From a virus, in the IMG/VR virus record IMGVR_UViG_3300035222_000020, positions 1 through 43,782 of that record: a DNA stretch of 43,782 nucleotides; one strand, given 5' to 3'. How positions within the stretch are numbered: the first letter of the stretch is position 1; each line of letters begins with the position of its first letter. Below, piece by piece: positions 2,615-23,158 of the stretch. The notes under the pieces were generated by a model. It did no database searches, had not been told where the DNA came from, and worked only from the letters and a program-made list of their open reading frames with translations. A program made the translations under genes and the position numbers.

Positions 2615-2621
2615 TACGGTG

Positions 2622-2629
2622 TATAAATA
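2622..2629 (+). promoter_or_regulatory. T4-type late promoter TATAAATA
   Basis: This is a perfect TATAAATA octamer 32 bases before the ATG at 2654. T4-like late promoters consist of this -10-like octamer, recognised by the phage sigma factor gp55. The short leader contains AGGAAATAAACA, shared with other late leaders in the window. Confidence 0.8.
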
Positions 2630-2653
2630 TTAGGATAGTAGGAAATAAACAAT

Positions 2654-4288
2654 ATGGCAAAACAGACAATCAATTTAGGAAGTTCTCCAAATGATGGCAC
2701 AGGTGATAACCTTCGTGCTGGTGGAGATAAAATTAATGACAATACAACTGAATTGTATACAGCTCTTGGAGATGGTACAGATTTAAAAATTGTCGTAGCA
2801 GGTGCTTCATCAAACCAAATTTTACAATGGGATACAGGTAATAGTAGATTTCAACCAACTGCTTCAGCAGCTGCTGGAGATATATCTGTAGATACCAGTC
2901 CACAGCTTGGTGGCGATTTAGATATAAACGCTTTTAATATTATTTCTGCTAATAACGAAAATATAGAATTTGTTCCACACGGAACAGGAGTAGTTAAGTT
3001 AGATGAACTAACTTTTCCAACAGGAGCAGGAACTACAGGTTATGTACTTGCAACTGATGGCGCAAGTGCAATGTATTGGAAACAAGTAGGAAGTACAATT
3101 ACTCTTTCTGCTGATACTGGTACTGATGATACATATACGGTAGGCAATGCACTTAACTTTGGTGGTGGTACAGGAATTGGAACAACCGTATCAGACGACA
3201 ATATTACAATAGCAATAGACGACACGGTTGCCGATTTAACAACCGCACAAACTTTTTCAAACAAAATTTATGATGACCCAAATATAACAGGTACATCAAC
3301 AGGAAATATTAAATTTAGATGTGCTACAATAGGTTCATTTATTGCTCAAGGTGCTACTGCTCTTGCAAGTTTTCAACCTGCGTCTGCTTATGCAGGTGCA
3401 TTTGGTGTTGATACATCAACATACAAAGCTTACTTTGCTGCTAATTCAGCTTGGAACCAAATCGCAAGTTCATTATCATCAATTGATATTTTAGCAGATG
3501 TTGATACTACTACAGCTGCCCCTACTAATAACCAAGTACTTACTTGGAATAGTGGAAGTTCACAATGGAAACCTACATCAATAACATCCGAGTTAAGTGA
3601 TGATACTAGTCCAGTTCTTGCTGGTAATTTAGATTCAGCAGGATTTACAATTAATGGAACAGGTAAACTTGATTTAACTGGTTCAGGTGGAAAAGCAAGA
3701 TTTGATTTTACAAATACTGCTTCATTTCCAACAGCGGCTACTTATGCTGGTGGTTTTGCTGTATCAACTTCAACAACTAAAGCATACTTTGCTACTTCTT
3801 CTGGTTGGATTAACTTATTATCAGAAAACGATAGTGTAGATATACTAACAGATGTTGATACTACTACGGTTACTCCAGTATATGGACAAGTATTAGTATA
3901 TGAAAATGTAAGTGGTACTGGAATATGGAGACCAAATGATTATGTTCCAGCTCAAAAAGTAGCTGCAAATTTTAATGTGGGCAATAGCGGAACAGCAGAT
4001 TTTACTTTTACAGGTGATGGATTTACAACTCATAATAGTGGTGGTTCACAAAACGATCCTGTACTTTATTTAAAGAGAGGTCACACTTATACTTTTACGG
4101 TATCTAGTGGTGGTAATGTATTTGAAATTAGATATTCAAGTGGTGGAAGTGCATATAACTTTGGTGTAGATGGTAATTCAACGAGTAGTGGAACAATAAC
4201 TTTCTGTCCTCTAATGAGTTCTCCATCAACCTTATATTATCAATGTCCAAGTCATGCAGGAATGGGAAATACAATAAATCTATCTTAA
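2654..4288 (+). CDS. Fibre-like virion protein with C-terminal cupredoxin-like domain
   Basis: This 544-residue protein begins INLGSSPNDGTGDNLRAGGDKINDN, an N-terminus common in marine phage fibre or baseplate proteins. Repeated blocks follow, including two copies of A.Y.GAF/GGFAV.TST.KAYFA (near residues 245-258 and 362-377) and repeated DILTDVDTTT segments. Residues about 435-544 form a domain with a plastocyanin-like pattern, ending YYQCPSHAGMGN. Its Cys-x2-His-x3-Met spacing matches the C-terminal ligands of blue copper proteins. The usual first His ligand seems replaced, because the segment reads GNVFEIRYS where related phage domains have a His. Copper binding is therefore doubtful, and the fold may serve only as a structural or adhesive tip. 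It has its own late promoter. Confidence 0.72.
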   Translation: MAKQTINLGSSPNDGTGDNLRAGGDKINDNTTELYTALGDGTDLKIVVAGASSNQILQWDTGNSRFQPTASAAAGDISVDTSPQLGGDLDINAFNIISANNENIEFVPHGTGVVKLDELTFPTGAGTTGYVLATDGASAMYWKQVGSTITLSADTGTDDTYTVGNALNFGGGTGIGTTVSDDNITIAIDDTVADLTTAQTFSNKIYDDPNITGTSTGNIKFRCATIGSFIAQGATALASFQPASAYAGAFGVDTSTYKAYFAANSAWNQIASSLSSIDILADVDTTTAAPTNNQVLTWNSGSSQWKPTSITSELSDDTSPVLAGNLDSAGFTINGTGKLDLTGSGGKARFDFTNTASFPTAATYAGGFAVSTSTTKAYFATSSGWINLLSENDSVDILTDVDTTTVTPVYGQVLVYENVSGTGIWRPNDYVPAQKVAANFNVGNSGTADFTFTGDGFTTHNSGGSQNDPVLYLKRGHTYTFTVSSGGNVFEIRYSSGGSAYNFGVDGNSTSSGTITFCPLMSSPSTLYYQCPSHAGMGNTINLS

Positions 4289-4298
4289 AGGAAAGATG

Positions 4299-4306
4299 TA
4301 TAAATA
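4299..4306 (+). promoter_or_regulatory. T4-type late promoter TATAAATA
   Basis: A perfect octamer lies 31 bases before the ATG at 4330. The following leader TTAGAAATAGGAAATAAACA is identical to the one at 31291-31310. I saw no other perfect octamer until 23531, so this promoter may drive about 19 kb, including the radical-SAM cassette. Confidence 0.82.
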
Positions 4307-4329
4307 GTGTTAGAAATAGGAAATAAACA

Positions 4330-5790
4330 ATGCCAGCAATTATAACAAGTAAATTTAGACGAAACAATGCTCAACAATTTGAGGAATCTTTTGGTGAGGC
4401 AGCTCCAAATGTCTATTACCTAGGAATAGGAAAACCAACTGCGTTTGGAACAAAAACTAGAGCAGATGGAAGGACAGATAACATAGGAACTGATTCAGCT
4501 CCTATAACACCAGCAGATTCAGTACAAGATGAATATGATACTTTTGATGATTTACTGGCTGCTAAAAAAATTACAAGCTCAGATGTTGCTTTTGCTTGTC
4601 CTAGAATAAATTGGGCAACAGGAACAACTTATGATATTTACAGAAACGATTATGGTAATAGAATAACAGGTACTACTACTACTCAATCTGCAAATTCAGG
4701 AGCAACAAATTTATATGACGCAAACTTCTATGTATTGAATACAAATTTTAAAGTCTATAAATGTTTAGACAATAATGACAACTCAGCGTCAACGGTTGAA
4801 CCAACTGGAGAAAGTGTTAATATATTAGAAACAGCAGATAGTTATAAATGGAAATATATGTTTACTTTATCTGCAAGTTCACAAGCAAATTTCTTATCAA
4901 CAGATTTTATGGGAGTTTCTACAAACTCTTCTGTACAAAATGCTGCTGTAGATGGCGACATATCAATTATTAAAATTAAGGCTGCTGGTACAGGTGGTAC
5001 TGATGGAACACATACAGGCATTGCAATTAGAGGAGATGGTTCTGGAGGAACTTGTTCGGTAACTATTGCTTCAGGTTCGGTTACTACGGTTGTGGTTACA
5101 GGAACACCAATTAACTATTCTTTTGGATATGTTAGAGTGGCAGATATTGTTGCCGCTGGTGGTACAAATTTAATAGGTGCTGAGTTAGATGTAATTACAG
5201 AACCAAAAGGCGGACACGGTTTTGACCCATTTGAAGAATTAGGTGCTTTCTTTATAATACTTAATACTTCTTTTGAAGGTGCTGAAACTGCTAACTCTGG
5301 AGACTTTGCTACACAAAACGATTTTAGAAGAGTTGCTTTAATTAGAGACCCTTTAGCTGGTGGTTCGGCTGCTAGTACAACAACATTAAGAGGAACTAAA
5401 GCAATTAGATTTGACGCAGGTGCAGGAACTTTTGTTGCTGACGAAAAGATTACACAAACAAATACAGGTGCTGTTGGTAAAGTCGTACAATGGGATACTG
5501 CAAATTTAATTTTATATTATATACAAACAAGATATGATGATGAAGGTGTTGACGCAAATGGAAATATGACTGCTTTTTCTGGTACCAATGTGGTAACAGG
5601 AGGCACTTCAACTGCAACAGGCACACCAACAGGCACAACCGAAACGGTTAACAATGTTTCTTTAGTTTCAGGTTATTCTACTTCCGAAATAGACGCTGAC
5701 TCTGGCGATGTAATGTACATTGAAAACAGAGCGCCAGTAACCCGAAGTGTTGACCAAACGGAGAATGTTAAGTTAATCATAGAATTTTAA
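4330..5790 (+). CDS. 8: Baseplate wedge subunit gp8-like
   Basis: This 486-residue protein begins MPAIITSKFRRNNAQQFEESF and continues with NVYYLGIGKPTAF, DDLLAAKKITSSDVAFACPRINW and GTTYDIYRNDYG. These are the hallmark segments of gp8-like wedge proteins of T4-like cyanophages and pelagiphages. gp8 is part of the baseplate wedge that changes conformation on adsorption. The C-terminal half (residues about 365-455) carries GTFVADEKITQTNTGAVGKV and a TGGTSTATGTPTGTTE run, the same short module seen in neighbouring virion proteins. The start follows a strong leader and late promoter. The next gene begins 12 bases after the stop. Confidence 0.85.
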   Translation: MPAIITSKFRRNNAQQFEESFGEAAPNVYYLGIGKPTAFGTKTRADGRTDNIGTDSAPITPADSVQDEYDTFDDLLAAKKITSSDVAFACPRINWATGTTYDIYRNDYGNRITGTTTTQSANSGATNLYDANFYVLNTNFKVYKCLDNNDNSASTVEPTGESVNILETADSYKWKYMFTLSASSQANFLSTDFMGVSTNSSVQNAAVDGDISIIKIKAAGTGGTDGTHTGIAIRGDGSGGTCSVTIASGSVTTVVVTGTPINYSFGYVRVADIVAAGGTNLIGAELDVITEPKGGHGFDPFEELGAFFIILNTSFEGAETANSGDFATQNDFRRVALIRDPLAGGSAASTTTLRGTKAIRFDAGAGTFVADEKITQTNTGAVGKVVQWDTANLILYYIQTRYDDEGVDANGNMTAFSGTNVVTGGTSTATGTPTGTTETVNNVSLVSGYSTSEIDADSGDVMYIENRAPVTRSVDQTENVKLIIEF

Positions 5791-11914: not shown

Positions 11915-12148
11915 ATGATAAACAATTTGGTTAAAGTATTGAAGTTTGAAAGTTTACAAAGAGATATAAGTTCAAATGCTATTGTAAATACAAGTTCTAG
12001 TGATTATGAAATTTATATAGCTAGAAAACAACAACGAGAAGTAGATAAAAATAAAATGCAAGATATATGTAGAGAAATAAATACTTTGAAAGCAGAATTA
12101 ATAGAAATTAAAAATATAATAAAGAACGGTAACGGAAATGGCAGTTAG
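11915..12148 (+). CDS. Small coiled-coil protein, unknown
   Basis: This 77-residue protein begins four bases after the DUF4815 gene and overlaps the next gene by 11 bases. The sequence is mostly charged and helical. Residues about 38-70 (QQREVDKNKMQDICREINTLKAE...) have heptad-like spacing consistent with a coiled coil, and the end is NGNGNGS. No clear ribosome site precedes it, so translation is probably coupled to the upstream stop. Small coiled-coil proteins in this place may act as assembly chaperones or fibre connectors, but that is speculation. Confidence 0.6.
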   Translation: MINNLVKVLKFESLQRDISSNAIVNTSSSDYEIYIARKQQREVDKNKMQDICREINTLKAELIEIKNIIKNGNGNGS

Positions 12149-13436
12149 ACAAGTAGCAACGACAGATAGTTTAGACAAGTTAAGGATAGAGTTTAATGCT
12201 CTAGCTTTATCTGACTTTGGTGATATTGCAACATTGGACGCTTCATTATCAGCAACTACGGTTATAGGTGCTGTTAACGAAATTAATGGAATTGCAATTG
12301 CCGCTGCTGGTTTCACATTAACAGATGGCCAAAACTCACAAGCGGTTGCTTCTGGTAATACATTAACCGTAAGTACAACAACAGGAATAACTGCGTTAGT
12401 TTCAGCACCAGATACATTAACACTTGGTATAAACACAGATTTAACAGGTATTAATACTATAGATGTTGCAACTTCTGTTGAGATAGGAGATTTAACCCTT
12501 TCAAGTGGTTCAATAATTGCAACAGGTGGTGCTATAAGTTTCGGTAACGAAAACCTAACTACTACTGGTGGAATTACTGGTGGAGCAATAGTTGGTACAG
12601 GATTAACAATCAATGGTGCTGAATTTTTAATGGAAGGCGCTACTTCGGATGCTTTTGCAACAACGATAAGGGTTACTGACCCAACTGCTGCTAATACAAT
12701 TACTATACCAGATATATCAGGAACCGTAATTACTACTGCTGATACAGGTACGGTTACTCAAACTATGTTAGCAAATTCTGCTGTAAGTACAGACCAAATA
12801 GCTGACGCTTCAATAACGATTGCTAAATTAAAAGATTTTCCAACTTCAACATTAACCGTAGACACTTTAATTGCAAATAATATTACAGGTCTTGCTGCTA
12901 CTGCAAGTCAAGTTGCTTTAACTGCTGATAATAGTACTAACGCAACAAGATTTATTACCTTTAGTGATAATGCTACAGGTAACAATGGATTAAAAACAGA
13001 TACAGATTTTTATTACAATCCTTCTACTAATACATTAACTACAACTTCTACACAAGCAAATTATGCTGACTTGGCAGAAAAATATCTTGTTGATAAAGAA
13101 TACGAAGTAGGAACGGTATTATGTATAGGTGGAACTGCCGAGGTAACTCAATGTAAAGATAATCATTGTTCAAAAGTTGTTGGTGTTGTATCAGAAAAAC
13201 CAGCGTTTATAATGAACGGAAGTTTAGAAGGAATGTCAGTTGCTGTTGCATTAACAGGAAGAGTTTCTTGTAAAGTATGTGGACCAGTTAAAAAAGGTGA
13301 TATGATAGTAAGTTGTGAACAAGCAGGTTGTGGTAGAGCAGAAGCAGAACCAAGACCAGGAACATTAATTGGTAAATCTTTAGTCAATGACGATTCAACA
13401 GGAGAAAGATTAGTTGAAATAGTTGTTGGTAAGTAG
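12138..13436 (+). CDS. Fibre-like virion protein with peptidase-G2-like, Cys-rich C-terminus
   Basis: This 432-residue protein has a repetitive fibre-type N-terminus (VGAVNEINGIAIAAAGFTL, TSVEIGDLTLSSGSI). A C-terminal domain begins near residue 310 with QANYADLAEKYLVDKEYEVGTVL. The series YADLAE.Y, EVGTV, VVGVVSEKPAFIMN, VAVALTGRVSCKV and GPVKKGDMI resembles the intramolecular autoproteolytic chaperone domain (peptidase G2 type) of phage fibres and spikes. If active, it would trimerise the fibre and cut itself off. The domain holds seven Cys residues, including CKDNHC and CKVCG...SCEQAGCG, which is unusual for an otherwise Cys-poor virion protein and suggests metal binding or modification. 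The family call is from pattern memory, and I cannot confirm the catalytic residues. Confidence 0.62.
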   Translation: MAVRQVATTDSLDKLRIEFNALALSDFGDIATLDASLSATTVIGAVNEINGIAIAAAGFTLTDGQNSQAVASGNTLTVSTTTGITALVSAPDTLTLGINTDLTGINTIDVATSVEIGDLTLSSGSIIATGGAISFGNENLTTTGGITGGAIVGTGLTINGAEFLMEGATSDAFATTIRVTDPTAANTITIPDISGTVITTADTGTVTQTMLANSAVSTDQIADASITIAKLKDFPTSTLTVDTLIANNITGLAATASQVALTADNSTNATRFITFSDNATGNNGLKTDTDFYYNPSTNTLTTTSTQANYADLAEKYLVDKEYEVGTVLCIGGTAEVTQCKDNHCSKVVGVVSEKPAFIMNGSLEGMSVAVALTGRVSCKVCGPVKKGDMIVSCEQAGCGRAEAEPRPGTLIGKSLVNDDSTGERLVEIVVGK

Positions 13437-13445
13437 GAGTAGATT

Positions 13446-13934
13446 ATGAGTAGTAAAGACGAACAAACTCTATTATGGATTAAGAGATTAAGAGAAGAAA
13501 TCCAATCACACACTAGATACGAAGCAAGACAACTATTTTACATAGACGAGAATGGACTTGACCGTGAGGCTAAAGAACATATGAGTTATGGTGAATGGTT
13601 GAGAGAGTATAACAGGTTTAAAATTGTTAAGGTGGAAGGTTTAGAAGATGTTGTTTGGTTAAAAGAAGTATTAGATGAAGTAGTAAAGAATATCACAGGT
13701 AAGACAAGACAAGATATTCATTTATTTGTTAATCAAACTGCTGGCATTAGTTTCAAACCTCATAAAGATGATAAAGATGTTTACTTATATGTTGTAAAAG
13801 GAAAAAAGAAAGTAAATATTAATAATGAGGTTAAACCTTTATATGATGATGAAGGAATTATCATTGAACAAGGTGTTGAACACTTTGTTGAAAGTGAAGC
13901 TGATACCTGGGGGTTAAGTATTGGAGTTATATAA
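13446..13934 (+). CDS. Small JmjC/cupin-like Fe(II) oxygenase candidate
   Basis: This 162-residue protein is preceded by a good TAGGAG ribosome site. The core reads LFVNQTAGISFKPHKDDKDVYLYVVKGKKKV, with H106-x-D108 and a downstream EQGVEHFVES containing H146. This is the layout of cupin-fold, 2-oxoglutarate/Fe(II) hydroxylases of the JmjC/YcfD type (PH.D..DV.L.V.GKK). YcfD-type enzymes hydroxylate protein side chains. Here the length is short, and a canonical 2-oxoglutarate-binding Lys or Arg is not obvious, so it could also be a non-catalytic cupin. Its stop overlaps the start of the first radical-SAM gene by one base (TAATG). It is the first gene of the accessory cassette, and I infer a role in peptide modification. 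Confidence 0.62.
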   Translation: MSSKDEQTLLWIKRLREEIQSHTRYEARQLFYIDENGLDREAKEHMSYGEWLREYNRFKIVKVEGLEDVVWLKEVLDEVVKNITGKTRQDIHLFVNQTAGISFKPHKDDKDVYLYVVKGKKKVNINNEVKPLYDDEGIIIEQGVEHFVESEADTWGLSIGVI

Positions 13935-14968
13935 TGAATTGGATGTTTTATTTAAAAACAACCGAAACTTGTAATTTAAATTGTAAACATTGTTTCACTT
14001 CTGGCATTAATGGACCTAAAGTATATTGGGATACTACAAAGGTTATTAAATGGTTAAACGATTTCCGTAAATACAATTCACAAAAAAACGATAGCGCTCA
14101 TTTAGAGTTTCACGGTGGGGAACCATTTTTAGTTCCTGTATCTGAAATGCAATATGTGTATGACGCAACTAAAGATTTGTGGGGCAATCAATCTTATGGT
14201 GTAACCACTAACTTGGTTTTCAAACTAAAACAAGAACATATAGATTTTATAAAGGGACCATTAGGGAATAGATGTGGAACTAGTTGGGATCCTGATATTC
14301 GTTTTGAAAATGAGAAACAATTAAACTTATGGAAACGAAATGTTGCTACTTTAATTGATGAAGGTGTAGACATTAAACTCTTTATATCAGTAACCAAAGA
14401 TACGATAGCAATTGAGCCAATTGAATTATTAAAATGGGTGCAAGATTTGGGTGTTAAAGAAATGGCACTTGAACGATTGACTGGTAATGGTAACGCTAAC
14501 TTACATCCTGAAATATTCCCTTCAAATATAGAACAAGACAAGTGGTTTCTAAAAATGCACGAACAAATGATACAATATAAGGCAAGAAAGTGGTTTGATA
14601 ATGAATTTTTAGAAACTATTTACTCAAAGTTTACTTCTGGTGATACGGAGCAAGGAACTTTTTGTAGAAATTGTGAACAAAAGCTCTTTACACTTAACGC
14701 AACTGGCACAATAGGTGGTTGTCCGAATGCTGCTCCTGAATTCAACTTTGGTACTTTGGATGACCCTTTAGTTGGTCTTATAAATAATCCAAAGAGATTA
14801 GAAGTCATTGCTTGTGAAGTGGCAAGAAACCCAATTTGTTGGGAATGTCCTGTTTTCAAGTATTGTGGTGGCGATTGTCACCAATTAGGATGGCAAGGAG
14901 ACATATGTGGTGCTCCTAAATCTCTTATGAAACATTTGGCGCAAAATAAAAGTGAGGCGATATGGTAA
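13934..14968 (+). CDS. Radical SAM/SPASM peptide-maturase-like enzyme 1
   Basis: This 344-residue protein has CNLNCKHC (C13, C17, C20), the CX3CX2C motif that holds the catalytic 4Fe-4S cluster and binds S-adenosylmethionine. HGGEPFLVP at 60-68 is the GGEP SAM-binding motif. The C-terminus is Cys-rich and SPASM-like, with FCRNCEQKLFTLNATGTIGGCPN followed by NPICWECPVFKYCGGDCHQLGWQGDICG. This resembles anaerobic sulfatase-maturase and RiPP-maturase enzymes, which bind auxiliary Fe-S clusters there. It overlaps the candidate substrate gene by seven bases, so it is the best candidate for the enzyme acting on that substrate. An anaerobic-SME-like oxidation of Cys or Ser is plausible, but the actual reaction is unknown. 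Confidence 0.85.
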   Translation: MNWMFYLKTTETCNLNCKHCFTSGINGPKVYWDTTKVIKWLNDFRKYNSQKNDSAHLEFHGGEPFLVPVSEMQYVYDATKDLWGNQSYGVTTNLVFKLKQEHIDFIKGPLGNRCGTSWDPDIRFENEKQLNLWKRNVATLIDEGVDIKLFISVTKDTIAIEPIELLKWVQDLGVKEMALERLTGNGNANLHPEIFPSNIEQDKWFLKMHEQMIQYKARKWFDNEFLETIYSKFTSGDTEQGTFCRNCEQKLFTLNATGTIGGCPNAAPEFNFGTLDDPLVGLINNPKRLEVIACEVARNPICWECPVFKYCGGDCHQLGWQGDICGAPKSLMKHLAQNKSEAIW

Positions 14969-15735
14969 CATTAACAAGTCCGATAACGGCACAGAACATA
15001 GTAGATAGATTTAAAGAATTGGTAACAGATGTAGCAGATACTAGTATAGTATGGGGTACAGATAACTTACCAGGACACTCAGCGTTTACCACCGCTGATT
15101 TTGGTGGAGTAGTTGATGGTATGTCTTTAGTCCTTATTAATACCACAGGAACATTTACGGTTAACGAAACGGTTACTGGAAGCATATCAGCTACAACAGG
15201 AGTTGTTGTATCTTATTCTAGTAATACATTGAAAGTTAGAAACATAGTTCCAGGTTCTGGACAAACGAATTTTTTACAAAATGATATTTTAACTGGTGCT
15301 TCTTCTGGAGCGATTGGAACGATTTCAACATTGACAGAAGTTTCAGCAGTTAGCGTTGGAGTAACTGGTGGTAATATTGGTAATACAGGAAGTCTTATTG
15401 ACGCTTATGATATTTACTCTACTTTAAAAAATGAAATGAATAATTACACTAATATTAAAAATTGCAATGCTGTAGTAAATTTAACAGGTGGTGCTCAACA
15501 ATATAATCAAACAGAAATTGCACATTTAACAACAGCACAAAGAGTCACCTTGACGCCTAGTCAACCAGGTGCATTATCAACAGGAGCACTTGCTACTTCA
15601 ACAAGTGTAGAAAATTATCTATCTACATTAGCAAGTAGTTATACCAGTGAAAGAGCTAACACATATACAATGACTAAAACGATTTGCCATTCAAGTTGCC
15701 ACTCTAGTTGCCACGGCAGTAGGAGTAGAAGATAA
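14962..15735 (+). CDS. Candidate modified virion protein with CHSS-repeat, Arg-rich tail
   Basis: This 257-residue protein is not an enzyme by any motif I see. Residues about 52-130 hold two copies of the short module found in the baseplate proteins (NETVTGSISATTGVVVSYS and NDILTGASSGAIGTI), so it is probably a virion component. Residues about 140-235 are helical and Thr/Ser-rich. The last 17 residues, 241-257, read ICHSSCHSSCHGSRSRR. This is a perfect four-residue C-H-S/G-S repeat with Cys at 242, 246 and 250, followed by an Arg-rich end. The gene lies between radical-SAM enzyme 1 and two unknown genes. It has a GAGG ribosome site, and its stop overlaps the next start (TAATG). The His-x-Ser spacing recalls the HxsA peptides modified by the HxsB/HxsC radical-SAM pair, but I claim no homology. 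I infer that this tail is the core modified by the cassette. Confidence 0.72.
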   Translation: MVTLTSPITAQNIVDRFKELVTDVADTSIVWGTDNLPGHSAFTTADFGGVVDGMSLVLINTTGTFTVNETVTGSISATTGVVVSYSSNTLKVRNIVPGSGQTNFLQNDILTGASSGAIGTISTLTEVSAVSVGVTGGNIGNTGSLIDAYDIYSTLKNEMNNYTNIKNCNAVVNLTGGAQQYNQTEIAHLTTAQRVTLTPSQPGALSTGALATSTSVENYLSTLASSYTSERANTYTMTKTICHSSCHSSCHGSRSRR

Positions 15736-16427
15736 TGATTGAAACTATAGTACCAATTGAATTAAAGAATTTAAAAAAATACTTTGAAGATAAAACACAA
15801 AGTTATATTATAGACTATCAAAAGAGTGAGTTACAAGGACAACAATTTTTAACTTATTTAAGTAATTTAGATATCCCTTGTGATGTGTCAAACTATGATG
15901 ATGAATTATTATTAGCATATTTTGAAACACAAATGTTAGTCAAAGTACCTATGTTAGAAAGAGTTGCTATACAAGTTCTCTTTGAACATAAAGGTTTAAT
16001 GAAAAATGTTGTTCACGGTGCTTTTATTTCTCAAAATTTAGAAATAATTGAACTATGGGCAAATAAATTAGAAAGTCTTCCTTTATATAATATGTCTATT
16101 ATTGGAGAAGGTGCTTTTAAAGAGTTTGTTGAGAGTTATCCTAAAGACGATAGTAATGATGTAAAAGGTATTAATTTTGTTAGTTTATTAAAACATAAAG
16201 ATTTTTACTTTTACTATAACAAAACTAATGAAAAAAATGTTAAATACTATACTAAATACTTCACAGAATATATGTTCAAAGGTAAAAGTCTATTTAATTT
16301 TTGGGGAGTTAAAGAAAACCCATTGTTCTTATTAACTTGGGCAGTTGCTGAAGGAAAATTTGATACTAAAAAATACAACGAAGCTAAAACAGCCGATATA
16401 GGAAAATTAAATGCTACACCTGTTTAA
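15735..16427 (+). CDS. Unknown cassette protein A
   Basis: This 230-residue protein starts at the overlapping TAATG of the CHSS-tail gene and overlaps the next gene by 17 bases. It appears mostly alpha-helical and acidic, with segments such as LLAYFETQMLVKVPMLERVAIQVLFEHKG (about 58-86) and Tyr/Lys-rich stretches (DFYFYYNKTNEKNVKYYTKYF). There is no signal peptide, no membrane segment and no Cys cluster. I do not recognise the family. Its position directly after the candidate substrate suggests a partner protein, such as a substrate-recognition or scaffold subunit, but no RRE-like (PqqD-like) winged helix is evident to me. Confidence 0.65.
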   Translation: MIETIVPIELKNLKKYFEDKTQSYIIDYQKSELQGQQFLTYLSNLDIPCDVSNYDDELLLAYFETQMLVKVPMLERVAIQVLFEHKGLMKNVVHGAFISQNLEIIELWANKLESLPLYNMSIIGEGAFKEFVESYPKDDSNDVKGINFVSLLKHKDFYFYYNKTNEKNVKYYTKYFTEYMFKGKSLFNFWGVKENPLFLLTWAVAEGKFDTKKYNEAKTADIGKLNATPV

Positions 16428-17526
16428 TAAAGTTTATTTAAATTTTGATGACTCAATAGATTGTCATACAAATAGATATGTTATTTCCGAAGATAAAGGA
16501 AATGCAATGCACGAACAATTAGGGACTGCTTATAGTGGTACACTAATTAACTATGCAACGAATAGAAATGAAATGTCAGGTAAGTATTCTGACTTAACTG
16601 GTTTCTTTGAAGATGTATGTACTAAACAAAAATCATTAAATAGTAAAGTTATTATATATTGCGATACACAAGCATTTTTAGAATACTCTATTATATGGTT
16701 AAAAACTATCTTACCTTTTGCTGATAGTGATAATATTGTAAAATACTTAGACCTATATCTACATAACGAAAGAATCACAGCAAATACTCAACTACAACCT
16801 ACACATACTTTAGATTTAACTAAATTGAATACAGGTTTAGGAGATGTTCTAGGATATGTTAATGTTCTACCTACTTTAGATTTAGATAGAGTTAAAGCGC
16901 TTAATTTAGATTTCTCAATTGAATTATTGCTTGGAGAGTACTTTGCTGGCGCTAATTCACACGAAGCTAATTTACTTACTACTTACCATATGTTTTTACA
17001 AAGATTTTATAAAGAAATATTAACAGATGTTAGAGAGGATGCGGCTCTAAATCTTTTAAATAAATCTCAACAAACTGCATTAGGTTATTCAGCAAATGAT
17101 GTTGTTATAAATGCTGATAACCCTTTTGAAGGAATTACAGAATTGGCTGCCTTTGCTGATACAGATGTTTTTACTGCTAAACCTGTTGCAAATGCTGGAT
17201 ATGTGAATACAATAACAATTGATAATTTGACAAGTGAAAAACAAACTGCATTAAAAACTTTAATTAGTACATTACAAACTTTTCAAAATATTCCAAATCC
17301 AGATTACTCAATGAGTCAATTTGATAAAGCTTGTGGTAATTCTTTATCATCAAGCGACTTTGATACAATAATTAATGAAACGGTGACGAATAGTCCGTCT
17401 TTGGCGTATATCCCAAGATTTGATGTTAGTAATGTTAACTACTCATTTTTACAATATCTTTTTTCTTTAAAGAAAGATAACGATTCAAATACGCTAGGAA
17501 AATTCAGACTATTCGCAAACTCGTAG
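16411..17526 (+). CDS. Unknown cassette protein B
   Basis: This 371-residue protein starts inside the end of protein A and ends eight bases before radical-SAM enzyme 2. It is predicted to be soluble. The N-terminal part has KVYLNFDDSIDCHTNRYVISEDKG and SKVIIYCDTQAFLEYSIIWLKTILPF (about 77-102), which look like a beta-strand and helix pair. The C-terminal part is helical, with QFDKACGNSLSSSDF and a SPSLAYIPRFDVSNVNYSFLQYLFSLKK end. I do not recognise the family. Scattered Cys residues occur but no metal-site spacing. It is tightly coupled to protein A, suggesting that the two work together. Confidence 0.65.
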   Translation: MLHLFNKVYLNFDDSIDCHTNRYVISEDKGNAMHEQLGTAYSGTLINYATNRNEMSGKYSDLTGFFEDVCTKQKSLNSKVIIYCDTQAFLEYSIIWLKTILPFADSDNIVKYLDLYLHNERITANTQLQPTHTLDLTKLNTGLGDVLGYVNVLPTLDLDRVKALNLDFSIELLLGEYFAGANSHEANLLTTYHMFLQRFYKEILTDVREDAALNLLNKSQQTALGYSANDVVINADNPFEGITELAAFADTDVFTAKPVANAGYVNTITIDNLTSEKQTALKTLISTLQTFQNIPNPDYSMSQFDKACGNSLSSSDFDTIINETVTNSPSLAYIPRFDVSNVNYSFLQYLFSLKKDNDSNTLGKFRLFANS

Positions 17527-17534
17527 GAGTTTAA

Positions 17535-18587
17535 ATGCGAGAATTTTTAATAGACCCCAAAAGAGATCCAGAGCAAGAGTACACAATTCATTTATTTGAA
17601 TTCTGTAATTTAAGGTGTGGGTTCTGTTGGCAAAATCACAACGACACGGTTGGAATAGATACCGTAATCAATAAAGTAATTCCTGTAGAAAAATTTATCA
17701 GAAGTGAATTAATGATGAGTGTTGTATTTAATATTATGGGTGGCGAAGTCTTTGCTCCTGCAATCTATAATACAGAATTAAATCACGCATATAAAACTTT
17801 ATCAAAAGGCATACAAATGATATGCAAACGCTATGATAAAAAATTAAAAATTAATTGGGTTAGTAATTTGGTTATGAGTGATGAAGGTAATGAGTTATTA
17901 AGAGATTTATTAAGTTGGTCTGAACAGGAAGGTATTGAAGCAACAATGACTACTAGTTATGACCCGAGAGGAAGATTTAACGAAAAAGATTTAGAACGAT
18001 TTAAACAACAAGTAATCTATTGGGGAAAAGAAATAAAATCTTTTTCAATGTTAATAACTAAACCAATGATAAAGTTTCATTTGGAAAAAGGCGATCCATA
18101 CTTCAAACATTTATATGATGAAGGTTATGAGATTTATTTTGATTATTATACACCAGACCAACACGCTAAAGTCTTTATGCCTAGCGATACGGAGTTATTA
18201 AAGTTCTTTAAGTATATAATAGATAACTATCCACAATGTTCGCCTGTAAGAGAATGGATATTTAAGAAAAGAAATTACGCTAGTTGTAGAACAAGTAAAT
18301 TAATATTACAAGACAATACATTATGTCAATGTGGTAATCTTGTACAGGACCCAAAAGATATAGTAGCATATGCTTCGCCTATAAAGAAAAGAGACAATTC
18401 AATTATTGAAAATAAATTTTTAGAAAAATATAATTGTGCTAGTTGTGAATTTTTGGATAGATGTACTTTAGGATGCTTTATGAACCACGATTATAAATGG
18501 AGGGAAGAATTGGATGAGTGTGTTTACAAACTTACGCACAGATATATTGAAAATGTACGAGTACAAAGAAACTTTATCGCAACCTGA
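17535..18587 (+). CDS. Radical SAM enzyme 2 with C-terminal Cys cluster
   Basis: This 350-residue protein has FCNLRCGFC (C24, C28, C31), the radical-SAM CX3CX2C motif, and IMGGEVF (GGE at 69-71), the SAM-binding motif. The C-terminus carries SCRTSKLILQDNTLCQCGN and later YNCASCEFLDRCTLGCFMNHD...DECVYKLTHRY, a SPASM/Twitch-like Cys set likely to hold one or two auxiliary Fe-S clusters. It has a GTAGGAG ribosome site. Its last 74 bases overlap the start of the next gene. It differs from the other three radical-SAM proteins outside the motifs, which argues for a separate step rather than recent duplication. The substrate is unknown. Confidence 0.83.
   Translation: MREFLIDPKRDPEQEYTIHLFEFCNLRCGFCWQNHNDTVGIDTVINKVIPVEKFIRSELMMSVVFNIMGGEVFAPAIYNTELNHAYKTLSKGIQMICKRYDKKLKINWVSNLVMSDEGNELLRDLLSWSEQEGIEATMTTSYDPRGRFNEKDLERFKQQVIYWGKEIKSFSMLITKPMIKFHLEKGDPYFKHLYDEGYEIYFDYYTPDQHAKVFMPSDTELLKFFKYIIDNYPQCSPVREWIFKKRNYASCRTSKLILQDNTLCQCGNLVQDPKDIVAYASPIKKRDNSIIENKFLEKYNCASCEFLDRCTLGCFMNHDYKWREELDECVYKLTHRYIENVRVQRNFIAT
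18499..18516 (+). promoter_or_regulatory. Ribosome binding site deciding an overlapping start
   Basis: GGAGGGA at 18499-18505 stands 8 to 10 bases before the ATG at 18514, inside the coding end of radical-SAM enzyme 2. The alternative ATG at 18553 has no such site. I therefore keep the start that gives a 74-base overlap. Confidence 0.6.
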
Positions 18588-19146
18588 TATTTCAAAACTA
18601 AAAATTAATAATACAGATATTGAAATTCAGTTAGATAAGTTTCCTATACAAACTCCGTTTATACCTAGAATAGATAGTAGACAAGCACATTTATTTTTAT
18701 GGTTAGGTAAGAAAGAAGAAGACATTGAAACATATAACCTTGCACAAAAGAATATTGGTGAAAAGATGTGGGTACATAATAAAACACCTAATACTTTTAT
18801 AAAAGGTGTAGGTATGTTTCATATCTATGATGATTATGTTATAGTAGGCTCTTTAAAGTACCCTGGTTATATGAGAAGTAAAAGCGCAATAGAAAGAAGA
18901 CGATTGATAAGAACAATGTGGTGTGAAACAATTAATATATTTAAAGATAGAAAGATATTATGTCCTTCTGGTTCTTATTTTGATTACTTACACTTATCTA
19001 TGAACCAAATGAAAGCACAAAAAGAACCTTACCATAGAGAGATAATGCAACAATTTGGTTTTGAAAAAGATGTAGTATATGACCACTTTTGGATTAGAGA
19101 TAAAGAAACAACAACTGGTTTGAATTGGATAAATTATGCAAATTAG
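18514..19146 (+). CDS. Unknown cassette protein C
   Basis: This 210-residue protein overlaps radical-SAM enzyme 2 by 74 bases and the next oxygenase by 11. Its middle has VGMFHIYDDYVIVGSLKYPGYMRSKSAIERRRLIRTMWCETINIFKDRKILCPSGSYFDYLHLSMNQ (about 98-165), a mix of beta strands and a basic helix. The end is YDHFWIRDKETTTGLNWINYAN. I do not recognise the family with confidence, and no HxD or CX3CX2C motif is present. In the cassette it may be a transferase or a binding partner, but the sequence does not show which. Confidence 0.62.
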   Translation: MSVFTNLRTDILKMYEYKETLSQPDISKLKINNTDIEIQLDKFPIQTPFIPRIDSRQAHLFLWLGKKEEDIETYNLAQKNIGEKMWVHNKTPNTFIKGVGMFHIYDDYVIVGSLKYPGYMRSKSAIERRRLIRTMWCETINIFKDRKILCPSGSYFDYLHLSMNQMKAQKEPYHREIMQQFGFEKDVVYDHFWIRDKETTTGLNWINYAN

Positions 19147-19714
19147 GTTTACAGATACAATAGATGTATTAGATAATTTCTTAACTGATAAAGAGTTAAT
19201 AAATCAGTTAAAAGAAGAAAGTAAAATTAATACTACAATTAAAGGACAAGATACATTTAATTTTACACCTTGTCAAAAGAAGTTTTGGGAAATTGCAAAT
19301 GTAACTATAGTAAATTATTGTCTTTCAAACAATATAGACTATAATAATATAGAGTTATCTAATTTTCAAAAAGGTAGATTAAAGAAGTACGACCAATCTA
19401 GTGTGACCAATCATCTATATGAACCACACCACGATAAGGTTGAAGGTGCTTTAATTTCTGCAATCTATTATATAGAAAGTGATTATACACCTGAAAAATG
19501 GGTAGGTGGTGAATTAAGTATATACAAAAATTTAACTTTTGCTGAATACCCTTATAATACCGTAAACATAGAACCTGTAGCTAATAGACTGATAATATTT
19601 CCTGGGTTTCTAGTACATAGAGTTAAACCATACTTTGGAATAAATCCGAGAACATCTTTAGTATTAGGATGGGAAGTAAAAGACCAACCAAAGACTGAAC
19701 CAATAATAGTGTAA
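19136..19714 (+). CDS. 2-oxoglutarate/Fe(II) oxygenase, prolyl-4-hydroxylase-like (1)
   Basis: This 192-residue protein has YEPHHDK (H98-x-D100), then GGELSIYKN, then FPGFLVHRVKPY (H161) and NPRTSLVLGWE (R172). This is the complete His-x-Asp...His iron triad plus the 2-oxoglutarate-binding Arg of the P4H-like double-stranded beta-helix family. The N-terminal IDVLDNFLTDKELINQLKEE is the usual leading helix of phage and bacterial P4H-like proteins. Such enzymes hydroxylate protein side chains or other substrates using O2. It overlaps the previous gene by 11 bases, and its stop shares a base with the next start (TAATG). In this context I infer hydroxylation of a peptide or a modified residue. 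Confidence 0.85.
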   Translation: MQIRFTDTIDVLDNFLTDKELINQLKEESKINTTIKGQDTFNFTPCQKKFWEIANVTIVNYCLSNNIDYNNIELSNFQKGRLKKYDQSSVTNHLYEPHHDKVEGALISAIYYIESDYTPEKWVGGELSIYKNLTFAEYPYNTVNIEPVANRLIIFPGFLVHRVKPYFGINPRTSLVLGWEVKDQPKTEPIIV

Positions 19715-20799
19715 TGGACTTAATAATTAAACCAACTGAATTGTGTAATTTCAAATGTACTTTTTGCTCAAGTACACAATTGACTAATGAGAAAAAGAAT
19801 TGGTTAAAACACGAACAAATATTTGAATTTCTAACAAGATTTCCACAAACTAAAACTATCATAGTAAATGGTGGGGATCCTTTGATGATGGAACCTGAAT
19901 ACTATTGGAAGATTATTAGATGGTTAGATGAAAGAGAATATACTACTTCACTTGCACTAACAACAAACTTATGGCCGTTTTATAAGAAACCTAGTTTATG
20001 GGTTGACTTATTTAATAACGATAGAATAGGAGTAACTACTTCTTTTCAATATGGTGGGGGAAGATTAAAAGGTGATTATTCTGAATTTACAGAAGAAGAC
20101 TTTTGGTTATGTTCAGACGCAATGAAAAAGTATGTTGGTTATAGACCAGATTTTATTTCAGTTATTACTAAAGAGAACGAACACAACGCAATTAAAAATG
20201 TTAAACTTGCAAAGTATATGTCAGAAGATAAAAAACCTGAAGGAACTTTACATACTTTTTGGAGAGAAGAGAAGACAGGTGTTGAGTGTAAGTTAAATTA
20301 TGCAATGATGAGTGGTGAACAAAAAGAACCATTTTTATTATCAGATATATATAATATATACACTAAAATTTATTTAGAAGGTTTAGCACCTTGGGAGTTT
20401 AATACAAAACAAATGATGTTGAGTATTAAAGATTGTTCTACTACTTGTCCTTTAAGTAGAAAGTGTGATGAAGGTATAAGATGTTTACAACCAGATGGAG
20501 ATTATTATAGTTGTGGTGCTTTCGGTGATGATAAAGATAAAGAGATAGATTTTAAAAAAGAAATGAAAGGTGAGTTTTTTACACCATTACAAGATGATGT
20601 TTCATTAATAAGTATGAAAAAATCTTGTTTTAGTTGTCCAATGTTTAATATATGTAATGGTTGTAGAAAGACAATAAAAGATTATCAACGAGCAGGAGTA
20701 ATAGAGAAACATTGTGAGAAAATGAAAAGATTAGGACCTGCAATATTAAAAGCAAATGGAAGTAATTTACAAATGACACCATATATAAGTGAAGCATAA
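19714..20799 (+). CDS. Radical SAM/SPASM enzyme 3
   Basis: This 361-residue protein has LCNFKCTFC (C11, C15, C18) and VNGGDPLMM (GGDP at 53-56), the radical-SAM cluster and SAM motifs. The C-terminus has CSTTCPLSRKCDEGIRCLQPDGDYYSCGAFGDD (from about residue 241) and CFSCPMFNICNGCRKTIKDY...EKHCEKMKRLG, a Cys-rich SPASM-like domain for auxiliary clusters. The stop TAA is directly followed by the ATG of the next oxygenase, so the two are likely co-translated. A radical-SAM plus P4H-like pair on each side suggests successive modification steps. Confidence 0.85.
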   Translation: MDLIIKPTELCNFKCTFCSSTQLTNEKKNWLKHEQIFEFLTRFPQTKTIIVNGGDPLMMEPEYYWKIIRWLDEREYTTSLALTTNLWPFYKKPSLWVDLFNNDRIGVTTSFQYGGGRLKGDYSEFTEEDFWLCSDAMKKYVGYRPDFISVITKENEHNAIKNVKLAKYMSEDKKPEGTLHTFWREEKTGVECKLNYAMMSGEQKEPFLLSDIYNIYTKIYLEGLAPWEFNTKQMMLSIKDCSTTCPLSRKCDEGIRCLQPDGDYYSCGAFGDDKDKEIDFKKEMKGEFFTPLQDDVSLISMKKSCFSCPMFNICNGCRKTIKDYQRAGVIEKHCEKMKRLGPAILKANGSNLQMTPYISEA

Positions 20800-21321
20800 A
20801 TGAGAAGAAGTCATTCCAATATAGAAAATGTTTTAATTAATGGAGTTTGGCCTACTTTGGATCCAGTACCATTTAGATTTTTTGATGGTATTGAAATACC
20901 ATTTAAAGCACAAGATGGATATAAAGTGGCAGTACATACACCAGATGTTGAGAAAGCTCTCAAAATGTGCCATACTTATTTAGGTGATAAATATATTAGT
21001 CAATTGTCTGGTAAGTTTAACTTATATGGACAACCAGAAATTATTAATGGAGTAGACAAAGGTTCGTTAAATTGGCATAATGATTTGAAAGAAGGAGCAA
21101 ATGTAGCAGCTCTTATGTATTTTACTGGAGCTAGTAATCCTGATACTGGAGGACATTTAGAAGTAAGAACTGCTGAGACAAAACAATTATCTGCTTTTTT
21201 ATATCCTGGTAAGTGTGATGTTATATTATTAAATCACAAAAGTACTTGGGAACATAAAATTGGAGAGTTTAAAGAAGCTGGGGTTGAAAGACTTACTGGT
21301 TATTTTGATTATAACATATGA
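20800..21321 (+). CDS. 2-oxoglutarate/Fe(II) oxygenase (2)
   Basis: This 173-residue protein has SLNWHNDLKEGANVAALMYF (H93-x-D95), TGGHLEVRT, KCDVILLNHKSTWEHKIGEF (H152) and GVERLTGYFDY (R164). That is the iron triad and the co-substrate Arg of the 2OG-Fe(II) superfamily. Little similarity to the oxygenase at 19136 is visible beyond the motifs, so it is a second, distinct enzyme. It starts immediately after the stop of radical-SAM enzyme 3, and its TGA overlaps the ATG of a 34-residue gene (ATGA). Confidence 0.8.
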   Translation: MRRSHSNIENVLINGVWPTLDPVPFRFFDGIEIPFKAQDGYKVAVHTPDVEKALKMCHTYLGDKYISQLSGKFNLYGQPEIINGVDKGSLNWHNDLKEGANVAALMYFTGASNPDTGGHLEVRTAETKQLSAFLYPGKCDVILLNHKSTWEHKIGEFKEAGVERLTGYFDYNI

Positions 21322-21422
21322 GCGAATTAGAGTTTTTTAAATTTATACAACAAATGGAAAAAGAAGTATACGATATTATACCATTCTTTGAGGAATTAGA
21401 TTATGACGAAGCAGAAAATTAA
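21318..21422 (+). CDS. 34-residue acidic small protein
   Basis: This short frame starts at an ATGA overlap with the oxygenase stop and ends 20 bases inside radical-SAM enzyme 4. The product is acidic and helical (begins MSELEFFKFIQQMEKEVYDI, ends EELDYDEAEN). Perfect stop-start coupling, in an operon where every other junction is coupled, argues that it is translated. It could be a small binding partner or leader-like peptide, or it may merely deliver ribosomes to the next start. It has no Cys and no repeat, so a RiPP core is unlikely. Confidence 0.55.
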   Translation: MSELEFFKFIQQMEKEVYDIIPFFEELDYDEAEN

Positions 21423-22374
21423 TTTATCAGTTAATCCATCTTATCATTGTAATTTTAGATGTTCTTGGTGTTATCTTACACCTGAACAATTAGGCGATAC
21501 TAAAACTATAAGTGATGAAAGATTAAATGAATTACTAGCAGAAGTTTCTGCTCATAGAGAAATTAATCATATTGATTTATATGGTGGTGAGATTGGTATA
21601 TTAAAGAAAGAACAATTAAAGAACATCACAGAAGTTATTAGACTTTATTATAAAGATAGAATTAATATCAATACAAATTTATCTGTATTAAGAGAAGAAT
21701 TTTTTAATCCCGATTATTATTTAAGTGTTAGTTATGATTTAGAGACTAGACAAGACTATGAAAAAGTTAAAGATAATATGGCGAAACTTCCAGTTGATTT
21801 TTCTATATTATGCTTAGCAACAAGAGAAGTGTTGAGCCGCTCTAGCGAACATTGGTGGCAAACATTTAATAATATTAACAAGTTGAGTATAGACCAACAT
21901 AAAGAATCTCATCTTAAAAGTGTAGAATTAAAACCTTATAGTTCTAATCAAGCAAATGACCAAAAGATAACACATACAGAATTTGAAAACAAAGTTTTAG
22001 ATTTATTAATGCTGGAAAAGGGATCAAAAGATGGTGATTATAATTTTGTAAATAGAGATAAAATAATAGACTCGTTAAGTGGAAAATATAACGCTTATAG
22101 TGATGACCACTTATATATTACACCAAATGGTAAATTCGCTGTATTGGAATTTGATAAAGACGATAGAGAATACTTTTTAGAATTAAATAGTTTTAAAGAA
22201 TACGAAGATTGGTGTATAAAAGAAAAAGAAAAGACCATATCAGATATTTGTAAAAAATGTGAATACCTAGGCGGTTGTTTAACTGAACATTACAAGTATG
22301 TTGATAATTTAAAAGATGGTTGTAATGGATACAAGTATGTTTTGGATACTTATCAGTTTAAATATGGCAAATAG
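21403..22374 (+). CDS. Radical SAM enzyme 4
   Basis: This 323-residue protein has HCNFRCSWCYL (C16, C20, C23) and LYGGEIGIL (GGE at 61-63). The core continues with ININTNLSVL and YLSVSYDLE, typical barrel strands. The C-terminal Cys set is reduced: ICKKCEYLGGCLTEHYKYVDNLKDGCNGYKYV (about 285-317), closer to a Twitch-type or single auxiliary-cluster domain than to a full SPASM domain. A GAGG ribosome site lies inside the small upstream gene. It is the fourth and shortest radical-SAM protein of the cassette. The substrate is unknown. Confidence 0.83.
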   Translation: MTKQKINLSVNPSYHCNFRCSWCYLTPEQLGDTKTISDERLNELLAEVSAHREINHIDLYGGEIGILKKEQLKNITEVIRLYYKDRININTNLSVLREEFFNPDYYLSVSYDLETRQDYEKVKDNMAKLPVDFSILCLATREVLSRSSEHWWQTFNNINKLSIDQHKESHLKSVELKPYSSNQANDQKITHTEFENKVLDLLMLEKGSKDGDYNFVNRDKIIDSLSGKYNAYSDDHLYITPNGKFAVLEFDKDDREYFLELNSFKEYEDWCIKEKEKTISDICKKCEYLGGCLTEHYKYVDNLKDGCNGYKYVLDTYQFKYGK

Positions 22375-23158
22375 AGCATTTTGTATTGGTAATGGAAGAA
22401 GTAGAAAAGGTTTTGATTTAAAAACTTTAAAACCTCGTGGTGTAATATTAGGTTGTAATAATCTTTATAAAGATTTTGTACCAGATATATTGGTTGCAAA
22501 AGACGCTCCAATTATGCACCACATTTATAATTCTGGATATTGTTATACAGCTAAATGTTTTTTTAAAAATTGGATAACGATACCTGAAGCTAAATTTGAA
22601 ACTACACTACACAAGTTATTTCCTGGGTATAGACATTTAAGAGCAATAAGAAAATCAGGTCAGTTAATAGAAAATGGTAGAGCAGGTTCAAGTGAGTTTG
22701 TATTACACGGATATAATGATGAAGAAACTAAAAAGAATATGGTATGTGTAAGTTGGTCTACAAAAGATTATGTTATTAATATAGCAGACATAGTAAGAGA
22801 CGCCGAACAAATGGATTGGTCATCAGGTCCTTTAAGTGGTTATATTGCTTGTAAAGATATTAGAGAATTAAAAGAAGTCTATCTAGTTGGACACGATTTA
22901 TATAGTGTGGGTAAAGGATTTAATAATATATATGCAGGACAGAAATTTTATAAAAAAGATACGCACCCTAGTAATTATTATGTACAAGGTTGGATACTAG
23001 AATGGAAACAATTGTTTAAGTGGTATCATTGGATTAAATTTTATAAAGTTAACAAAAAAAGTTATTTAAATATAAACATTCCTGAATGGAGCGATTGTAA
23101 AAATTTGGAGTATATAAGTTATGAAAGAATGGAAGCTCAAACAAGAAATTTACCATAG
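22364..23158 (+). CDS. Protein with nucleotide-binding-like IGNGRSRKG N-terminus
   Basis: I choose the ATG at 22364 (MANRAFCIGNGRSRKGFDL), giving 264 residues. An upstream ATG at 22316 would add 16 residues encoded by the end of radical-SAM enzyme 4, and it has no better ribosome site. The N-terminus, with FCIGNGRSRKGFDLKTLKPRGVILGCNNLYKDFVPDILVAKDAPIMHHI, recalls the DUF115/MptE-like and glycosyltransferase-associated fold (IGNGPS...G.N..Y....D..V..D). KDIRELKEVYLVGHDLYSVG is a second strand-helix unit, near residue 180. Related phage proteins exist, but no activity is established that I can cite. It may act on surface sugars or provide substrate for the cassette. Function is unknown. Confidence 0.65.
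   Translation: MANRAFCIGNGRSRKGFDLKTLKPRGVILGCNNLYKDFVPDILVAKDAPIMHHIYNSGYCYTAKCFFKNWITIPEAKFETTLHKLFPGYRHLRAIRKSGQLIENGRAGSSEFVLHGYNDEETKKNMVCVSWSTKDYVINIADIVRDAEQMDWSSGPLSGYIACKDIRELKEVYLVGHDLYSVGKGFNNIYAGQKFYKKDTHPSNYYVQGWILEWKQLFKWYHWIKFYKVNKKSYLNINIPEWSDCKNLEYISYERMEAQTRNLP

Follow-up and report, generated by a model that had tools for sequence, protein, structure and literature searches.

A Cys-His protein end linked to radical SAM genes in phage tail regions: a putative modified core on a predicted virion tip protein

In the tail region of a T4-like phage, a protein ending in three Cys-His units is encoded among radical SAM (rSAM) and oxygenase genes. Is this end (the CH tail) a substrate of the enzymes encoded around it, and what could a modified end do on a phage particle? 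The locus lies in an IMG/VR virus record of 43,782 b, analysed over its whole length (the window) and assigned to a T4-like tail region from family matches and gene order. A preliminary description, made from the sequence alone, had presented the CH tail as a probable modified core of the RiPP type.

The CH tail and its gene module

ORF 14962-15735 (+ strand) encodes 257 aa and its C-terminus is ICHSSCHSSCHGSRSRR. As described earlier, this sequence fills the last 17 codons (15682-15732) and is followed by a TAA stop (15733-15735). The three repeat units had been recognized correctly (CHSS, CHSS and CHGS); the end had been read as SRSRR and is RSRR, directly after the units. The rest of the protein, said to be free of Cys, contains Cys168 within NCNAVVN. 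No further Cys is present in 110 of 157 distinct CH-tail proteins. Pairwise DNA matches between the three units were 10/12, 8/12 and 9/12; since the units differ at some bases, the tail is not merely a fresh DNA repeat.

Genes for a baseplate-wedge protein, a gp9/10-type protein and gp8 occupy window positions 59-5790. They are followed by a gene for a 2,035-aa protein, the fibre-like gene at 12138, the module and tail-fibre genes. The features of the module are as follows.

12138..13436, +: fibre-like protein, 432 aa, directly 5' of the module; weak tail-fibre match to phrog_19602 (4.6e-6), phrog_22593 (1.1e-14), sub-threshold Peptidase_G2
13446..13934, +: cupin-like protein, 162 aa, possible oxygenase; Cupin_2 2e-5, 24.7 bits, below the cut-off of 27.2
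13934..14968, +: rSAM/SPASM enzyme A, 344 aa, candidate tail-coupled maturase; phrog_1802 6.5e-65, SPASM TIGR04085 29.0 bits (cut-off 27)
14962..15735, +: CH-tail protein, 257 aa, putative virion tip protein and precursor, from its ORF, tail and neighbours
15115..15348, +: inserted beta domain of the CH-tail protein, residues about 52-129; AF2 model and structure matches
15682..15735, +: C-terminal tail ICHSSCHSSCHGSRSRR and stop, putative modified core; 17 codons and TAA
15735..16427, +: phrog_20767 protein, 230 aa, conserved partner; 6.3e-58
16411..17526, +: conserved companion, 371 aa, without family match
17535..18587, +: rSAM enzyme B, 350 aa; phrog_1802 6.7e-38
18514..19146, +: protein without family match, ORF of 210 aa, true start probably further 3'; ORF only
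19136..19714, +: 2OG-Fe(II) oxygenase, 192 aa; PF13640 2.2e-8, 35.4 bits (cut-off 27)
19714..20799, +: rSAM enzyme C, 361 aa; phrog_1802 4.2e-54, PF04055 30.2 bits (cut-off 29.5)
20800..21321, +: 2OG-Fe(II) oxygenase-like protein, 173 aa; PF13640 9.6e-4, below cut-off
21403..22374, +: rSAM enzyme D, 323 aa; phrog_1802 6.2e-31, PF04055 30.5 bits (cut-off 29.5)

The CH-tail gene overlaps the rSAM A gene by 7 b at its start and the phrog_20767 gene by 1 b at its stop. The genes of rSAM A, the CH-tail protein and the phrog_20767 protein are translationally coupled, and further rSAM genes and 2OG oxygenase genes come after them. The rSAM neighbourhood noticed earlier was confirmed and is larger than the two-enzyme system that had been evoked: four genes match phrog_1802 (starting at 13934, 17535, 19714 and 21403), accompanied by two genes of 2OG-Fe(II) oxygenase type, one scoring above the Pfam threshold and the other under it, and by a sub-threshold cupin. 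Cupin genes are annotated at the matching place in phages DT01 and FLC6. Starts like that of the companion (M-x-x-L-F-K-x-x-Y, judged by eye) were seen in loci L164, L074 and L195. A phrog_30607 protein (FCIGNGRSRKGFDL) is encoded at 22316-23158, right after the fourth rSAM gene.

Linkage and conservation of the tail

The pattern CHxxCHxxCHxxRxRR* was found in at least 120 stretches of IMG/VR viral contigs, and the scrambled pattern HCxxHCxxHCxxRxRR* in none. Among the matches listed, 119 of 120 stretches were in-frame ORF C-termini; the tail of the exception (L114) is also in frame, but the stretch has no ORF of 40 aa that includes a start. The CH tail is therefore far from a chance occurrence. 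The pattern was also found in 19 stretches of genome contigs (bacteria and MAGs).

A search for the tail and for co-occurring rSAM genes had been recommended, and tails in phages lacking rSAM genes had been named as the result that would speak against a modified core. Fifty of the at least 120 stretches were followed up, some of them on near-duplicate contigs. The rSAM family phrog_1802 was present in all 50 tail-bearing virus records, usually in 4-5 copies, and no tail without it was found. The partner phrog_20767 was recognized in 44 of these 50 records and in 0/14 control genomes; the six records without a match count against the explanation preferred below. Thirteen tail-less T4-like contigs of at least 20 kb, hand-picked from 79 gp8-bearing loci for their length and for the lack of a tail in the locus, contained neither the CH motif (0/13) nor a phrog_1802 match above about 21 bits (0/13), faint matches being obtained in 4/13.

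The linkage was also examined from the enzyme side. An rSAM A alignment was built from 15 upstream rSAM proteins, viral contigs were searched with it and the best 80 of 390 relatives were kept. A protein ending in CH..CH..CH and R-x-RR was encoded at 75 of these 80 loci. At the other five, no more than about 300 b separate the rSAM gene from the contig end, too little to be judged, so that no counterexample was found among the loci open to judgement. Tails in this rSAM-selected set were recognized by CH..CH..CH, and the weight lies on the absence of a complete counterexample. Among 50,697 phage records, rSAM A and phrog_20767 matched the identical seven: Atu_ph07 (two records), Phosso, DT01, FLC6, FLC8 and SURPRISE13. 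The tail was read in four of the seven; in FLC8 and SURPRISE13 full-length matches extend over it. In all four regions read, the order was rSAM gene, tail protein gene and phrog_20767 relative, with one additional gene ahead of the phrog_20767 match in FLC6. Jumbo phages, marine T4-like phages and Bdellovibrionota all show this order. The conserved linkage of a virion-type protein tail with a multi-rSAM cluster is real and strong, and a search of open-licence PMC papers found no description of it.

The phrog_20767 protein, a partner nearly as constant as the rSAM enzyme, was modelled with a pLDDT of 88.8. Its model gave no match at E <= 0.001 by Foldseek against the PDB and, in a VIA search, common arrangements only (best Z 3.4). 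The module of FLC6, a Burkholderia phage, includes two genes annotated as dihydrofolate reductase (L148, 10930-12143). A large cluster protein with a NPPHADWSLANNMTYL-like start, perhaps another type of rSAM enzyme, recurs at L277:9569-11281, L278:15572-17311 and L195:10197. Two tandem tail proteins of 124-140 aa follow a large fibre-like protein in L026, L049, L077, L099 and similar phage contigs, and in several contigs with such short tail proteins phrog_20767 was not matched.

Poor conservation of the tail among homologues had been named as a second adverse outcome, and the opposite was observed. In an alignment of 77 body-linked proteins with a mean column identity of 23%, the only invariant columns were nine in the tail (C, H, C, H, C, H, R, R, R). 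Because the pattern presets C, H and R, their invariance is built into any set found with it; the 77 proteins were found by pattern or body, so selection partly dictated their tail residues, and a fairer test comes from the rSAM-selected set. A profile of the body only retrieved 232 ORFs, with the tail in 219 and five cut by contig ends. The others were two bacterial HxS variants and six ORFs of one clade with a Gly-rich C-terminus (PF21722, 41.7 bits), adjoining a separate 140-aa tail gene. The clade suggests that the N-terminal part of the body is a docking domain carrying interchangeable tips. At L195:6016-6942, a paralogue with the N-terminal body and the Gly-rich PF21722 end lies beside the 140-aa CH-tail gene.

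The tail is covered by the profile of phrog_35144, which matched the FLC6 protein at 2.4e-124 and the window tail at 6.6e-6; in the window protein only the last 35 residues or so match this family. Neither the window protein nor its 35-aa end nor the L015 homologue had a tblastn match in phages; the short end was probably missed owing to the low-complexity filter.

Residue rules, enzyme families and the predicted modification

In phages the C-x3-C-x3-C spacing is strict and C and H are invariant. Position x4 of the unit (two residues after His, three after Cys) was never Gly in 471 units from 157 distinct proteins, whereas Gly occupied x3 in 78 of them; T, V and I were also never found at x4. 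In the 63 distinct rSAM-selected proteins x4 is S, N or A only. Over the 471 units the motif is H-x-[S/N/A/Q/K/R], in keeping with the triceptide core rule (aromatic-x-X with a beta carbon at i+2). A position free of Gly and of beta-branched residues is the acceptor rule expected if three-residue His cyclophanes were formed. In passages of PMC11002830, known His cyclophanes made by HaaB and YhhB link His i to the beta carbon of residue i+2 (Ala, Arg), and related cyclophane enzymes take Ser and Asn acceptors. Binding of heme c (CxxCH) was rejected, since the tail has the spacing CxxxCH.

The CxxxCxxC motif and the SPASM cysteines of rSAM A are invariant in 15 relatives, and a SPASM rSAM enzyme is encoded beside the putative substrate; the neighbouring tail protein would be what rSAM A acts on. 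rSAM A resembles the peptide maturases DynA, PapB and HxsB, and its DT01 counterpart the cyclophane enzymes YhhB and FxsB, all far below the NCBIfam cut-offs; rSAM A passes no NCBIfam equivalog cut-off. The family searches recognized no RRE peptide-recognition domain, which counts against the reading preferred below.

Three known systems were compared. In Hxs (TIGR03979, TIGR03978, TIGR03977), the repeat protein HxsA goes with the rSAM pair HxsB/HxsC; a passage of PMC9062424 calls maturation in this system putative. Like HxsA, CH-tail proteins carry C-terminal His-x-Ser repeats near several rSAM genes, and the bacterial homologue L275, which ends in CHSSHSSHSSHSSRGRR, has contiguous HSS; this lends support to the proposed His-Xaa-Ser likeness. 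Unlike Hxs, the phage repeat has a spacing of 4, a Cys before each His, an R-x-RR end and four rSAM enzymes with oxygenases, and both enzymes and precursor fall outside the Hxs families: scores were 36.1 vs 370 bits for HxsB and 31.7 vs 267.9 for HxsC, the window protein matched no NCBIfam model, HxsA included, and L275 matched HxsA faintly and below cut-off (16 vs 121.65 bits). The triceptide enzymes (XncB, OscB, MscB, HaaB and YhhB) are also SPASM rSAM enzymes, and their bond, which in the passages of PMC11002830 joins an aromatic residue i (His included) to the beta carbon of Ala, Asn, Ser or Arg at i+2, fits H-x-[SNA]. Unlike triceptides, the core here sits on a protein of 100-360 aa, the bond is predicted and the family models were not reached (YhhB 31.3 vs 445 bits for the window rSAM A and 49.5 vs 445 for that of DT01; FxsB 44.1 vs 370 for the latter). 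Ranthipeptides (PapB/freyrasin) also have repeated Cys motifs in the core, and PapB is among the best matches of rSAM A; unlike them, the tail has no Asp acceptor and rSAM A stays outside the family (PapB 40.8 vs 340 bits). The CH-tail system thus resembles Hxs or triceptide systems and by the models tested is a member of neither.

We infer that the CH tail, found almost always beside a peptide-modifying rSAM in unrelated phages and some predatory bacteria, is probably a chemically modified contact tip. Of the earlier proposal of a modified core, the linkage with rSAM genes and the conservation of the tail were borne out by the data above; the modification is our interpretation of them. It is reasonably likely that the tail is a RiPP-like core which is carried by a virion tip protein, undergoes maturation by the cluster of four rSAM enzymes and 2OG oxygenases and probably stays attached, and covalent modification of some sort is given the same likelihood. 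The last 16 residues of the ORF would be the substrate core of a dedicated maturation system, in which rSAM A may act on the repeated H-x-S/N units. The most likely bond would join each His to the beta carbon two positions on (three-residue cyclophane type); it is suggested by the x4 rule and by the persistence of H-x-[S/N] where Cys has been lost, and as an exact chemistry it is put forward tentatively. The other rSAM enzymes and the oxygenases may work on Cys, Ser or linkers. The invariant Cys of phages, unexplained by a His-only bond, counts against this scheme, and the rSAM enzymes could instead act on another product of the cluster.

The Cys residues could themselves form thioether rings of the ranthipeptide or sactipeptide type; CXXX spacing would then be the core rule and His would play a secondary part. 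The strict C-x3-C-x3-C of phages agrees with such rings, as do two NCBIfam matches of rSAM A far below cut-off, PapB in second place (40.8 bits) and the CXXX-repeat maturase (21.9 bits). However, L275 has one Cys yet four H-x-S units, and the exclusion of Gly and beta-branched residues is registered two residues after His and three after Cys; thioether rings as the core rule are somewhat unlikely. With the same invariant C and H, three Cys-His pairs might instead clamp Zn, Fe or Cu, unmodified, at a spike tip, the rSAM cluster serving otherwise. Iron- or zinc-bearing phage spike tips are on record. Such a clamp would leave unexplained both the near-perfect coupling with rSAM A and the absence of Gly at x4, and the mode of metal binding would have to be quite another in the bacterial variants that have CHGNFPPPCHGS or a single Cys with four HSS; the metal tip is speculation and very unlikely. 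The tail might also be a recognition or sorting tag bound by the cluster enzymes, the modification taking place elsewhere, on the body or on an adjacent fibre. Its high conservation on diverse bodies and its basic C-terminal end are like those of sorting tags in general, and a fibre-like gene lies 5' in several systems. A tag would not need a triple repeat, though, or the four units of L056, and in the 77 members the rest of the body has no invariant segment, which makes a mere tag distinctly unlikely. The four C-H-x-N units of L056 (8105-8878) are encoded by a 231-kb virus with many rSAM genes, in which phrog_20767 was not recognized.

Virion context and relatives in predatory bacteria

The modified tip favoured here would be displayed on the particle. 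The CH-tail module is flanked by baseplate genes (gp8, gp9/10 type) 5' and by tail fibres 3'. In the AF2 model of the CH-tail protein the tail has low confidence (pLDDT 54-63), and Foldseek against the PDB gave no match at E <= 0.001. A VIA search, which covered residues 52-127 only, matched the inserted beta domain best to the baseplate cup of phage KP1 (9f4a_A0, Z 7.7, rmsd 2.3, 71 aligned), a modest match since Z is below 8. This domain also matches many cyanophage baseplate, fibre and neck models in BFVD and is 38% identical to window 1598-1804, in the window's own baseplate-wedge protein. The homologue in Atu_ph07 is gp170. According to a passage of Attai et al. (PMC6102473), most virion proteins identified by MS in this phage fall in CDS 31-76, 170-215 and 284-329; gp215 is the major head protein, so the gp numbering agrees with the CDS numbering. 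All three ranges are 46 wide and 170 may be a drawn edge, so that detection of gp170 is unproven by this passage. Gene context and domain matches nevertheless make the CH-tail protein a putative virion component at the baseplate or a fibre tip. The body would dock it onto the particle, and a rigid, Arg-capped tip would contact the Gram-negative envelope. This function is suggested by the location, the Gram-negative hosts of the isolated phages and the setting of the module in predatory bacteria.

If this holds, many phages carry a chemically crosslinked tip made by a dedicated enzyme cluster, a phage structural protein is a RiPP-like substrate, and rSAM enzymes with a simple core of three CHxS units become available. 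The rSAM and 2OG-oxygenase genes among the tail genes of jumbo and marine phages would have a concrete reason, and one module would serve phages and predatory bacteria. The proposal is directly testable because isolated phages with culturable hosts (DT01, FLC6 and Atu_ph07) carry the module. As a bolder and tentative extension, phages and predatory bacteria may share an enzyme-crosslinked, Arg-capped tip with three to four His cyclophanes, perhaps metal-binding, as a displayed RiPP machine part that grips or enters the Gram-negative envelope.

Of the bacterial and MAG genomes in which the motif was matched, 17 were searched for rSAM A; it was present in 13 and absent from four. All 13 genomes with a tail ORF carry rSAM A and all four without one carry none; having the motif and no tail ORF, these four are chance matches. 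In the phylum of a Bacteriovorax MAG, 16 of 290 genomes contain rSAM A relatives; in one of the 16 (G215) no tail was found in the 27.9-kb contig read. Among the bacterial tails are the canonical form and the variants CHSSHSSHSSHSSRGRR (L275), CHSNHCSHSNHGSRGRR (L272), CHGNFPPPCHGSRGRR (L269, L270 and L274), CHTNVPTPPPCHASRGRR (L271) and CHSNCYTPPPKSRSRR (L268). In the divergent Bdellovibrionota tails Cys is lost or moved, and H-x-[S/N] and R-x-RR are mostly kept. L275 has one Cys with four H-x-S units in contiguous HSS repeats. Two points count against the preferred reading: a pure HxS repeat was found in only one Bdellovibrionota homologue, and in L268 a single H-x-N unit remains and the last His is missing.

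In an rSAM A tree of 63 viral and bacterial rows, enzymes with variant tails stand on long or separate branches (L264 1.44, L265 0.82), and those with PPP-type tails group at 100/100, which fits a joint change of enzyme and substrate. Viral and bacterial rows are intermixed, with seven label changes, at least six of them forced by well-supported branches, and the module has thus been transferred between phages and bacteria; part of the intermixing is due to phage contigs within MAGs (L155 and L157).

Long contigs that also carry pilin-like genes contain several of the bacterial loci, and pilin-like starts of similar kind were seen in several of the loci L268-L278. At L276:15956-17143, a Bacteriovorax protein in which an S74 fibre chaperone domain is combined with a pilin-type N-methylation motif adjoins the rSAM/CH-tail cluster. 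A passage of PMC10769870 describes the MAT fibres of Bdellovibrio as phage-fibre-like surface proteins that touch the prey and have S74 tips. The Bacteriovorax CH-tail locus is like them in adjoining the S74 and N-methylation protein; unlike them, the CH-tail protein is not itself an S74 fibre.
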